The notes below the pieces were generated by a model. That model did no database searches and was not told where the DNA came from. It saw only the letters and a program-made list of their open reading frames with translations. DNA of 64,000 bases from a virus. Both the position numbers and the translations under genes were made by a program. Location of the stretch: positions 1 to 64,000 of the IMG/VR virus record IMGVR_UViG_3300035670_000167; one strand, written 5' to 3'. Position 1 is the first letter of the stretch. Each line of letters starts with the position of its first letter. Shown piece by piece: positions 1 to 6,613 of the stretch.

Positions 1-419
1 GCAATATCACATTGTTCACCTGTTTTATCAGCGATTGAAAGTGCAACTGCTTGAGTAATTGAAGCAAAGATTTTGTTACGATTAGGAACAACTGTTGCTT
101 TCATATTTTCTTCAGCATAGTGTCCTTCAGGTACTTCATCTCCACCTGTTACAAGTGAAGAGTTTAGTAAATCAACTAATCCGTTTAATTGGATTTGACG
201 ATAGTCAATTGGATTGAATGAAGGATGAGTTTTTGCTACTTCTAATGTAAATTCATTCAAATAATCTACTAATGATTGAGCACGTTCAAGCTCAACTCTA
301 TGTTTTTGTCCATAATCAAATGAAAGTGCAGTTACTGTATCATACTCTTTTAAGCAACGAAGTAACAATGTGGAGGAGTCCATCCCTCCGCTAAGACTAA
401 CTACTACGTGTTTTGACAT
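1..419 (-). CDS. queC: QueC, 7-cyano-7-deazaguanine (preQ0) synthase, C-terminus cut by window edge
   Basis: Partial gene: about 139 N-terminal residues are present and the rest lies left of position 1. The protein begins MSKHVVVSLSGGMDSS, whose SGGMDSS is the PP-loop ATP-pyrophosphatase signature of QueC. It continues with FDYGQKH, also typical of the family, and later PNRN. QueC converts 7-carboxy-7-deazaguanine to preQ0 with ATP and ammonia. In phages this normally feeds DNA base modification rather than tRNA queuosine. A DpdA-like TGT-family gene lies about 0.9 kb upstream (1329-2126), which fits that role. The other pathway genes (folE, queD, queE) are not in the window and may lie to the left. 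The start is the ATG at 417-419. Family identity is firm; use for DNA modification is inference. Confidence 0.92.
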   Translation of the reverse strand, partial: MSKHVVVSLSGGMDSSTLLLRCLKEYDTVTALSFDYGQKHRVELERAQSLVDYLNEFTLEVAKTHPSFNPIDYRQIQLNGLVDLLNSSLVTGGDEVPEGHYAEENMKATVVPNRNKIFASITQAVALSIADKTGEQCDI

Positions 420-472
420 AATTTATATAATTTAAATAAGCCAGGTATTTTAGAGCGTATAGGCAAACGCTA

Positions 473-928
473 TTAAAGTTCAAGATTATTAAATGCTGGT
501 TCAATTTGCTTGTCCCAGAAATACTCTTCTTCAAAATCTACTTCTACATCAGTTTCATCTGATTCCCAGCTATCAGGTCCATTGCATTGGAAAATACCAA
601 TTGGGTAAAAAGTTTCGTCCCAGTATCTACCTGTAGCATATGCGCTATTATCATATTCTTGAAGTTGAGCAACCATATTTTTAATTAAAGTATCAGGTGG
701 ATACCAAGCTGATTCAAAAGAAACAAAATATTCATATTCATCTTCACGATACCAATCATATTTAGTAAGCCATTTTGAACCGATTCTATCAATCATATTT
801 TCAGCATCTTGATTACCAAATTGACCAATATAATCTTCTACAGTAAAATCTTTTACAAGTTTTTCAAACCAATCAATAGTTGACATATTAGCATGTAAAT
901 GCACTTCTGTTCTACAAACGTTTGCCAT
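473..928 (-). CDS. Hypothetical acidic protein, 151 aa
   Basis: Not recognised. The product is soluble, acidic and rich in Trp and Tyr, with a very acidic C-terminal third. No transmembrane segment or known motif is visible. Its first codons overlap the end of the small upstream gene at 912-1079 by 17 bases, so the two are probably translationally coupled. It sits between queC and the DpdA-like gene, but a link to base modification is only positional. Confidence 0.75.
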   Translation of the reverse strand: MANVCRTEVHLHANMSTIDWFEKLVKDFTVEDYIGQFGNQDAENMIDRIGSKWLTKYDWYREDEYEYFVSFESAWYPPDTLIKNMVAQLQEYDNSAYATGRYWDETFYPIGIFQCNGPDSWESDETDVEVDFEEEYFWDKQIEPAFNNLEL

Positions 929-1079
929 TTTCTTCTTCTTTGTTTAATTTATCAAATTCTTCTTTTGACATTCCTCCCATTAACATATAAGCTTCAAAAT
1001 CTATATCAAATAATCTCCAATGATTATACCACTCGTATTTCCAAACTAAACGATATTGTTCGAATGTTTTTTTGTCCAT
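912..1079 (-). CDS. Small hypothetical protein, 55 aa
   Basis: An ATG at 1077-1079 opens a 55-codon frame starting MDKKTFEQYRLVWKYEW and ending at TAG 912-914. It overlaps the start of the next gene (start 928) by 17 bases and begins 3 bases after the upstream gene stops at 1083. This tight packing is the main support. The product is charged, Trp-rich and soluble, with no recognisable domain. Its function is unknown. Confidence 0.65.
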   Translation of the reverse strand: MDKKTFEQYRLVWKYEWYNHWRLFDIDFEAYMLMGGMSKEEFDKLNKEEENGKRL

Positions 1080-1082
1080 TTT

Positions 1083-1325
1083 TTAAAAAGGTAAGTCATC
1101 GTCTTCATCAGAAGAAGATAATACTAATTTTGCTTGTTGTTGATTTTGGAAATATTCTTTTAAAAAATCTTCAGGATAAAGCATAACTTTGCCTGTGTAT
1201 TTAGGGTTAGAGATTTCTCTTATTTCTGTTTTAATGTCAGCATTTGCAGCTGCGTCCCAAACTTCTTTACCTAATTTTTCACCGGCGGCATAACCTAGGT
1301 AATCATATAAACTTAACATATTCAT
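1083..1325 (-). CDS. Small protein with SSB-like acidic C-terminal tip, 80 aa
   Basis: The function is not recognised. The C-terminus reads SSSDEDDDLPF, which matches the acidic tail with terminal DDDLPF of single-stranded DNA-binding proteins. The gp32-like SSB of this phage (14228-15055) ends EEDDDLPF. In SSBs this tip binds replication and repair partners. The body (about 65 residues) contains MLSLYDYLGYAAGEKLG and shows no obvious OB fold. A small partner-recruiting protein that mimics the SSB tail is possible but inferred. It lies between the DpdA-like gene (start of spacing 1329) and the small gene at 912-1079, with spacings of only 3 bases. A second in-frame ATG at 1319 is an alternative start. 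Confidence 0.75.
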   Translation of the reverse strand: MNMLSLYDYLGYAAGEKLGKEVWDAAANADIKTEIREISNPKYTGKVMLYPEDFLKEYFQNQQQAKLVLSSSDEDDDLPF

Positions 1326-1328
1326 AAC

Positions 1329-2126
1329 TTATAAATTATTTATTAAACGAAACATTTCAACATTATTATCAACAAGATCTAAATCAATATCTTTTAAAGG
1401 TAAATCTTGAAAATTATTCATATTAGCTTCTGGTTTTTCTGTTAAACCATAAAATTCAATTGTATTACCATCTAAAGCAGCCATAACCGGATTTGAAGTA
1501 TCAATTGATTCAATACATTCAATACCTTGATACCAACCAAATTCTTGTGGTACCTGGCATCCTAATAAATGGACTCGATCGTGTTTAGTTAATGCTTTTT
1601 GTTTATATAGTGTTGAGATTACATAAACACGACCCAATGCTTTACCTAAATCTTTATTTGGATGAACGCATATATCATTGTAATAAGACGCACCATATGA
1701 ATAAGCAATTTTCTTGTATCCTAAATCTTTATAAATTTGAGTACATTCAAATGCTTCATGAAGTGATTGAGCTTGAACTACTGCTACTGGAATAGTATTT
1801 TTGGGGAATTGTGCTTTAATCCACTGGCGGGCATTAACGATGGATGCTGTTTTATCTTCCCATACATCAGGAACAATAAATTCATTAGGTTGTAGTTCAT
1901 GAATCCAATGTATTAGACGAGATGTGGTGTAAGCTACACCTAATTCATGAAGGGAATTATCCATGATAATATATCGACCTTCAGCTCTTGCTTTTCTAAA
2001 ATATGCTAGATATTCTTCGTTTTCATCCAATAGGTGAGGTAGACAATAATCTCCATCTGTGAATTCTCGGCTGTAATCTAATAGACTAAATGGTACTTCG
2101 TGAAAAACTTTTATTTTTGATTTCAT
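1329..2126 (-). CDS. DpdA-like tRNA-guanine transglycosylase family protein (predicted 7-deazaguanine DNA insertion)
   Basis: 265 aa. The layout resembles the TGT/DpdA TIM barrel. An early IIMDNSLHELG segment sits where TGT enzymes carry the catalytic Asp region. It is followed by FIVPDVWEDKT (the PD..D type strand), then PVAVVQAQSLHEA (equivalent to VVQG..E), then VHLLGCQVPQEFGWYQGIECIESIDTSNP (HLLG...DS type). DpdA enzymes exchange guanine in DNA for preQ0 or derivatives. The truncated queC at the left edge supports this reading. At 265 aa it is shorter than classical bacterial TGT (about 380 aa) but in the range of compact phage relatives. No zinc site is evident. It could instead be another TGT-fold enzyme; the family call is moderately sure and the DNA substrate is inferred. 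Confidence 0.65.
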   Translation of the reverse strand: MKSKIKVFHEVPFSLLDYSREFTDGDYCLPHLLDENEEYLAYFRKARAEGRYIIMDNSLHELGVAYTTSRLIHWIHELQPNEFIVPDVWEDKTASIVNARQWIKAQFPKNTIPVAVVQAQSLHEAFECTQIYKDLGYKKIAYSYGASYYNDICVHPNKDLGKALGRVYVISTLYKQKALTKHDRVHLLGCQVPQEFGWYQGIECIESIDTSNPVMAALDGNTIEFYGLTEKPEANMNNFQDLPLKDIDLDLVDNNVEMFRLINNL

Positions 2127-2129
2127 ATA

Positions 2130-2744
2130 CTAATTTTTATACCTCCAAATATACGAAGCGGAAGTTGCTTCTCCACCCTTTCTTAAAGCATTATTAATAG
2201 CTGTTGGATTTCCTTTTACAATTTTTGCTGCTTCTTCTATACTGGGGTGTTCTTGAATGAAATTACCTTGTTTATCAAATTGAAGGATAGGTTTATTATT
2301 AGAGGGTAGAGGTTTTCCTTTTTTAGATTGACTAATTTTAAGTTTATTTTCTTCACTTCTGGTTTTTCCTTTCCAATGAGAATTTTTTCTTTTTCCTAGG
2401 TTTACTTTTCCTTTTTCACTAATAAGTTTTCGAGTATTTTCATTATGAGCTTCTACTCCACCTCCTCCCGGGTTTGAATTTAAACCTTTATTATACGAAT
2501 TATAAAATTCAATCCAATGTTTTTCTCGTTGTGCTAATAAATCCTCAGTATCTTCTAAAATTTCAAATACATGATTTTCAAATCCATATGTTTCAAAGGA
2601 TTGATTTAATTTGGGTTGTTTTTGTGTTTTACTACTATTTTTATAATTTAACCACCTAACATGAATATTTTGAGAACATCCTATATAGACTTCCCCTTTT
2701 GGGTTTGTAATTTTATAAATTCCACTTTTTTTCATATATTCCAT
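2130..2744 (-). CDS. GIY-YIG homing endonuclease with NUMOD repeats
   Basis: 204 aa, freestanding endonuclease. The N-terminal GIY-YIG domain (about residues 5-90) shows SGIYKITNPKGEVYIGCSQN with the paired GIY and YIG motifs, an Arg in the following helix (VRW) and a downstream Glu. The C-terminal half contains NUMOD3-type DNA-binding segments (HWKGKTRSEENKLKISQSKKGK) and a NUMOD1-like stretch (PILQFDKQGNFIQEHPSIEEAAKIV). Such enzymes nick DNA at unmodified alleles and spread themselves. It lies immediately upstream of the DpdA-like gene with 3 bases between. A late-type motif (2748-2757) precedes it. Met4 (2735) is an alternative start that leaves more leader. Confidence 0.92.
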   Translation of the reverse strand: MEYMKKSGIYKITNPKGEVYIGCSQNIHVRWLNYKNSSKTQKQPKLNQSFETYGFENHVFEILEDTEDLLAQREKHWIEFYNSYNKGLNSNPGGGGVEAHNENTRKLISEKGKVNLGKRKNSHWKGKTRSEENKLKISQSKKGKPLPSNNKPILQFDKQGNFIQEHPSIEEAAKIVKGNPTAINNALRKGGEATSASYIWRYKN

Positions 2745-5227: not shown

Positions 5228-6613
5228 TTAAACTTGTCCTCCGTCAGTAATAGTCCAGTTATTAGGAGCATTATCTAAAGTAGCTCGTCCAGCAGCACCT
5301 GCTGCTGTATAATTGGCTGTTCCAAAAGTAATAGTTAAATTAGGTTGAACTGTTAAAAGTGACCAACCGTTATAAATTGCATTTAAATTAGCTGTGGAGA
5401 ATGTTGATGGAGTTTTTCCAGACATAAAATTACTAAAATCATTAACAAGTGATATATCCCACCCACCAATATTTTGATTAAATGCAGTTGCACCTTGGAA
5501 CATACCACCCATACTAGTAACAAGTGATACATCCCAACCCCCAATATTTTGATTAAATGATGTTGCACTATTAAACATACTACCCATATCAGTAACAAAT
5601 GACACATCCCAAGTTGATATGTCTTGATTAAAAGATGATGCATTACTAAACATGATACTCATGTTAGTAACCTTGGATACATCCCAACTTCCAATATCTT
5701 GATTAAAAGATGATGCATTAGTGAACATAGACTGCATAGTAGTAACCTCGGATACATCCCAACTTCCAATATCTTGATTGAATGATGTTGCAAGATAAAA
5801 CATATTAGACATATTAGTAACAAGTGACACATTCCAAGTTGATATGTCTTGATTAAATGATGTTGCACCAAAAAACATACTCTGCATATTAGTAACAGTA
5901 GATACATCCCAAGTTGATATATCTTGATTAAACGCAGAAGCTTGGAAAAACATAGTATTAGTAGTTAGAACTCCAGTGAGATTCCAATTTCCTATCGGAC
6001 CATTAAAATTAGTACATCCTCTAAAAGTACTAGCTAATGATGTTGATGATATTGTTGGAACACTTGTTGCACTAGATACTAAATTCGAACAGCCATAAAA
6101 AGCAGAATTTGTATTAATATCCCAAACACTCCAATTAAATATTTCTAATAATTTAACAGCATCCCCAGCACCATTAAATCTCCATCCGTTTATTATTCCT
6201 GAGGTTATTGTGATATAATATTGTCCAGGTGTTGCATATGTATGGAGAGTTTCTGCTTGGTTATAAGAAGTAATAGTATTTGTTGTTCCATCACCCCAAT
6301 CAATTGTAAAATTAATTACACCATTATTTGTTAAAGGTAATTGGAATTGGTTATCATTTGTAGTGGTTCCTTCCACTACATTTTCAGTATCAATTAAAAA
6401 ATCACCTAAAAGGGAAGGTGTTGGTAGAGAAGTAAGTTGAGATCCTTTATTTTGGAATTGTTGGAGATGCAACTGTTGTTGCATTGATATAAAATTATCA
6501 AATTGCAGTTGTTCATGAAGATATTTTTGAGTTACTTCATTAATAGGTTTTCCAACATTATCTCCTCTTAATATAAAAGACTGCCAAGGTCCGGGATCGT
6601 TTACAAAAAACAT
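5228..6613 (-). CDS. BspA-like (DUF285) repeat surface/adhesion protein, 461 aa
   Basis: Residues 227-401 are seven tandem 25-residue units of the BspA/DUF285 type (SFNQDIxxWDVSxVTNMxxMF), a leucine-rich-repeat-like fold used by bacterial surface adhesins. A preceding part, about residues 88-140, looks like a small beta domain ([21 protein letters not shown]), similar to PKD-type modules. The N-terminal 70 residues begin [23 protein letters not shown], with a Gln-rich helical stretch that could be a virion attachment region. There is no signal peptide, which suits a virion structural protein rather than an exported host protein. A late-type element (6640-6649) precedes it. The likely role is a receptor-binding or accessory fibre protein; the repeat family is firm and the role inferred. 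Confidence 0.85.
5411..5935 (-). repeat. Seven 75-bp coding repeats (BspA/DUF285 units)
   Basis: Seven consecutive 75-base units encode 25-residue repeats sharing FNQ(D/N)I..W(D/N)(V/I)S.V. Units 1-6 are most alike and the last has diverged. Near-identity of neighbouring units at DNA level suggests recent duplication and possible copy-number change. Confidence 0.9.

Follow-up and report, generated by a model that had tools for sequence, protein, structure and literature searches.

Phages that carry DpdA together with QueC, QueD, QueE and FolE, without QueF or an amidotransferase, have dPreQ0 at about 28-32% of their G positions and are resistant to several restriction enzymes (PMC6884629). 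In the DNA of Mycobacterium phage Rosebush and Escherichia phage CAjan dPreQ0 was measured (PMC6884629). Both resemble the locus described here in combining DpdA with QueC, QueD, QueE and FolE without QueF; they differ in that their DpdA belongs to another class, a phosphoribosyltransferase (PRT) was not found in them, and the QueCs of CAjan and of a Rosebush-type phage keep the zinc cysteines.

The DpdA3-class phages (Campylobacter phages of Firehammervirus, Flavobacterium phage immuto and Cellulophaga phage phiST) share with this locus a compact DpdA of 240-270 aa and TGT-fold type with the motif order MDNS/PD/HLLG/SIDTSNP. QueD, QueE and FolE are also present in immuto and phiST, and QueC in immuto; immuto differs by the addition of QueF and a PurN-like formyltransferase and by a queC about 15 kb from dpdA, and phiST by the absence of queC from its annotation. 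In the Brevundimonas phages StAshley and MaInes a compact DpdA, annotated as hypothetical, adjoins the DNA polymerase, queC-queD-queE are present, and an XGPRT-like gene comes straight after folE; these phages belong to another host class and phage lineage, and the QueC of StAshley differs in keeping the zinc motif.

The stretch of DNA analyzed here (the window) covers the first 64,000 bp of a virus record, G000, which is 69,633 bp long and starts at base 1. The phage carries head, portal and terminase genes and its own ribonucleotide reductase, which is 76% identical to that of immuto, a phage close to it. No RNA families were found in the window by an RNA family search, and no tRNA was found in it. 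With a probability of roughly 0.78, the locus is read as a phage 7-deazaguanine DNA-modification operon that serves preQ0 synthesis, insertion of the base by DpdA (most likely as dPreQ0), escape from restriction and recycling of guanine by a PRT. What is established below, by computation, concerns the genes with their folds and motifs, and the order and linkage of the genes.

The compact DpdA and its neighbors

The gene at 1329..2126 on the minus strand encodes a compact protein of 265 aa, annotated from identity, fold and motifs as dpdA, a predicted DNA-guanine transglycosylase. The preliminary description had seen here a compact TGT-family protein with the order MDNS/PDVWED/HLLG, which was confirmed on all three grounds. 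The motifs follow one another as MDNS (residues 55-58), PDVWED (86-91), HLLG (186-189) and IDTSNP (208-213). Pfam TGT gave no match, the match of NCBIfam DpdA was marginal (E=0.03), and the best PHROG match is a family of unknown function; because none of these three collections named the protein, fold and neighborhood were used. Over its full length it is 33% identical to an immuto protein annotated as DNA guanine transglycosylase, and it also aligns at full length and 33% identity with Campylobacter Firehammervirus proteins (tblastn 1e-27). Compact relatives from MA9V-3, BSP7, StAshley and phiST match as well, and the same motif order is found in DpdAs of Brevundimonas, Cellulophaga, Chryseobacterium and Bacillus phages, including proteins annotated as hypothetical. 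At least 566 relatives were confirmed in a pattern scan. The compact DpdAs annotated as hypothetical in MA9V-3, BSP7, StAshley, MaInes and phiST have genes for DNA polymerase or the preQ0 pathway next to them or nearby.

An AlphaFold2 model of the window protein, made from 24 relatives, has a mean pLDDT of 93.7. The top Foldseek matches of the model are all TGT, with the DNA preQ0 insertase DpdA (7ui4) at E 4.6e-7, and VIA alignment gave Z scores of 17.9 to the archaeosine TGT (arcTGT) 1iq8 and 17.7 to 7ui4; the model has the TGT-type TIM-barrel fold. A PDB sequence search with the DpdA profile returned mostly designed TIM barrels, and its match to 7ui4 (E 0.011) was treated as weak. Among 18-24 relatives, D56 (MDNS), D87 (PD), H186, G189 and D209 (IDTSNP) never vary, and Q118 hardly does. 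Judged by motif order, the catalytic-type aspartates would be equivalent to D102, D156 and D280 of TGT. By fold, motifs and neighborhood the protein is a member of the DpdA family, and it is predicted to exchange guanine in DNA. It probably belongs to DpdA3, a class name of Cui et al. 2023 that is reportedly linked to complete guanine replacement.

An ORF of 80 aa (1083..1325, minus strand) lies between dpdA and queC, in a place taken in many relatives by the f10 family, of which 54 occurrences were found in related loci; it resembles this family in position and in a motif (SLYDYLGYAAGEKLGKEVWDAAANAD vs SLFDYLGHAAGSDLGKQVAAAASAEK). The ORF of 151 aa (473..928, minus strand) between the f10-like gene and queC resembles DUF1281_C weakly and below the threshold (E 0.034) and is probably a passenger. 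On the other side, a GIY-YIG/NUMOD homing endonuclease gene (2130-2744, minus strand) ends a few bp from the start of dpdA; similar endonucleases recur near the ribonucleotide reductase genes of relatives. Further along, at 5228-6613 on the minus strand, a protein with many BspA-like repeats is encoded; locus L124 has a similar one close to its dpdA.

QueC and the operon in related loci

The second gene, queC (preQ0 synthase), occupies 3..419 on the minus strand and matches Pfam QueC PF06508 (6.6e-25), PHROG QueC (1.8e-25) and TIGR00364 (2.9e-24). It had been described beforehand as a clear QueC with SGGMDSS, 0.9 kb downstream of the DpdA-like gene. The family and the motif stand, as does the spacing (0.91 kb, same strand); the gene is present only as its 5' 139 codons, the N-terminal 139 residues, because the record begins at base 1. 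This part holds SGGMDSS, YGQKH and VPNRN and is 85% identical, where aligned, to the full-length QueC of related locus L002, whose model (pLDDT 83.5) has the QueC fold, with 3bl5 and 2pg3 as first structural matches.

Two scans of viral contigs yielded 95 related loci. Wherever both genes were present (87/87 loci), queC lay downstream of dpdA on the same strand and within 3.5 kb, with a median gap of 473 bp, and the pairing is therefore not due to chance. Behind queC the relatives usually carry queD, queE and folE (or folE2), followed by a PRA-PH/MazG-like NTPase and a family-B DNA polymerase; FolE2 takes the place of FolE in three records without FolE. No QueF was found above the cut-off in 19 related records, four of them 147-156 kb long. 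In three records QueF matches below the threshold fell exactly where FolE matched, and they were set aside. The radical-SAM cysteine motif of QueE is widened to CX3CX7C in 60 of 74 phage QueEs from related loci (e.g. L102, L086), and some relatives have a different QueE with a long insertion instead. Between queE and folE, L006 (10969-11625) and six other loci encode a protein of about 218 aa that is possibly glycosyltransferase-like and has no Pfam match; it may be a base-decorating enzyme or a passenger.

To judge from the relatives, from which everything beyond dpdA and the partial queC is taken, this end of the window would hold the first two genes, dpdA and queC, of a phage operon for 7-deazaguanine DNA modification. 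The system is of a known kind, and the earlier suggestion of a likely 7-deazaguanine DNA modification is supported by the TGT/DpdA fold, the conserved aspartates, QueC, and the queD, queE and folE or folE2 of the relatives.

The QueCs of this clade are distinguished by their zinc site. The zinc motif C(x)8CxxCxxC is lost in all 82 full-length copies, with D, S and S at its last three positions in 82/82; the window copy ends before the motif. The catalytic motifs are kept in the relatives' QueCs of at least 255 aa (SGGxDS, VPNRN and YxDC in 84/84, YGQKH in 83/84). The immuto QueC, 77% identical, also lacks the zinc motif. Zinc cysteines are kept in the examined QueCs of Campylobacter, Mycobacterium, Arthrobacter, Vibrio KVP40 and Brevundimonas phages, and with wider spacing in those of CAjan, phi3ST:2 and vB_VhaS-tm. 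The zinc-less subtype also occurs in marine Poseidoniales, Pirellulaceae and Cysteiniphilum, whose QueCs likewise have no C4 motif and are about 43-58% identical over the N-terminal part; they differ in being chromosomal, presumably for tRNA archaeosine or queuosine. In one marine archaeon the gene stands inside a folE-queE-queC-msrB-queD locus. In the bacterial loci L131 and L134 (Cysteiniphilum, Facilibium), queE and queC, and in L134 also queD, closely resemble the phage set and share the odd QueE motif and the zinc-less QueC, so that gene exchange between phages and bacteria is possible.

A survey of PF06508 describes the zinc motif as a hallmark of QueC and zinc as required for function (PMC13329287); no description of the zinc-less subtype was found in it. 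Loss of the cysteines could alter the product, and an alternative is that the base is dADG or another derivative, either because a QueC without zinc goes no further than the amide or because an unrecognized enzyme alters the inserted base. The uniform loss of a motif described as required speaks for this reading, as do the dADG of some Campylobacter phages (PMC6884629) and the QueF and PurN-like formyltransferase beside dpdA in related immuto. Against it stand the retention of all QueC catalytic motifs, the zinc-less copy in an archaeal locus where preQ0 is needed, the nitrile preQ0 needed by the QueF of immuto, and the 19 records of the clade in which QueF was not found; the alternative is tentatively kept as a minority reading. 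Since immuto QueC is 77% identical and immuto QueF needs preQ0, the zinc-less subtype probably makes preQ0. In immuto (L023, 12948-13475) the PurN-like gene is flanked by dpdA and a thymidylate-kinase-like gene, and QueF comes next; the PurN-like gene and QueF fit a formylated preQ1 base.

A phosphoribosyltransferase beside folE

Among the 53 loci in which queE and folE are both visible, 42 have a PRT in or next to the queE-folE interval, 29 of the HGPRT and 13 of an XGPRT-like type; the L002 copy matches HGPRT TIGR01203 at 7e-36. Because a start from dpdA biases this count, separate scans were anchored on each PRT family. They found 7-deazaguanine pathway genes in 78/80 and 78/80 loci, these being the best-scoring 80 of each scan and hence no random sample of viral PRTs, with median PRT-folE gaps of 6 and 38 bp. 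In annotated phages the XGPRT-like family was found in 11 records, 11/11 with a compact DpdA and from three unrelated groups; in the Brevundimonas phages the gene directly follows folE. HGPRT matches in the annotated phage collection were mostly unannotated or metagenomic contigs looking bacterial and were not used. On the DpdA tree the PRT state (HGPRT, XGPRT or none) changes at least 16 times, and the window DpdA falls into a well-supported set of seven, the five scorable members of which all have HGPRT.

Pribosyltran matches were present in five of 11 compact-DpdA records tested and missing from six, so that recycling of guanine would be optional. This absence, and the frequency of host nucleotide salvage in phages, would agree with a PRT that serves general scavenging of nucleotides from degraded host DNA and RNA, and has no particular part in recycling the guanine expelled by DpdA. 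Such a role is possible and is considered less likely than recycling: the gene is very tightly linked to folE and the 7-deazaguanine genes, its slot was filled repeatedly by two PRT families, and no Pribosyltran match was found in six phages with other DpdA classes (DpdA1/DpdA2-type).

Proposed pathway and significance

In the favored reading, that of base exchange with guanine recycling, the operon would continue leftwards past the contig with queD, queE, a guanine-type PRT and folE, then a MazG/PRA-PH-like NTPase and a family-B polymerase. FolE (or FolE2), QueD, QueE and QueC would convert GTP to preQ0. After replication the compact DpdA would cut guanine from the phage DNA and insert the 7-deazaguanine, so that restriction enzymes would no longer recognize or cut it. 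Each exchange would release one guanine, which the PRT would turn into GMP and thereby, via GTP, return to FolE. The synthesis and exchange steps are standard for these families; the recycling loop, suggested by linkage and chemistry, probably operates as well. In the window phage the nature of the base, its share of the guanine positions, guanine recycling and protection from restriction are inferred. dPreQ0 would be the likeliest base, because no QueF was found in the 19 related records and because phages with DpdA, FolE, QueD, QueE and QueC that lack both QueF and an amidotransferase carry it, which makes it the best guess here; a further base-tailoring gene could be present.

Guanine phosphoribosyltransferases use the purine N7, which 7-deazaguanines lack, and this counts against incorporation during replication, a route in which the PRT would make a nucleotide of preQ0, which ribonucleotide reductase and kinases would convert to the dNTP for incorporation by the polymerase of the phage. 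The PRT does adjoin folE near the DNA polymerase gene, the phage has its own ribonucleotide reductase, and a modified-dGTP path was once proposed for Campylobacter phages (PMC6884629); a DpdA in the same operon would nevertheless be superfluous and many compact-DpdA phages have no PRT, which leaves this route improbable. Least probable is a tRNA role, in which the phage would raise host queuosine and the TGT-like protein would be a tRNA-guanine transglycosylase: the fold is common to tRNA TGTs and a supply of queuosine precursor was suggested for phages without DpdA (PMC6884629), but by sequence the protein is related to DpdA-type proteins of phages, of which one is annotated as DNA guanine transglycosylase, DpdA 7ui4 is among the best structural matches, and QueF, which bacterial queuosine needs, was not found in the 19 related records.

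A literature search, which did not include Cui et al. 2023, found no earlier description of the zinc-less QueC, the PRT-folE coupling or the FolE2 swap. As far as the literature searched shows, the new parts are the zinc-less QueC and the coupling of PRT and folE. Several compact DpdAs bear no annotation beyond hypothetical protein. The analysis would extend 7-deazaguanine DNA modification to a large group of phages related to a Flavobacterium phage, and points to a widespread QueC subtype without the canonical hallmark zinc site in phages, marine archaea and bacteria. The chances are about even that these parts form a self-feeding base swap, in which guanine expelled by DpdA would pass through the many times exchanged PRT (HGPRT or XGPRT) to GMP and on to FolE, and in which the zinc-free QueC and, in some phages, FolE2 would cut the need for zinc. 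This suggests a testable answer to the question of cost, that is, of the fate of the expelled guanine in a phage that exchanges a large share of its guanine; if true, the self-feeding loop would make near-complete guanine replacement affordable.
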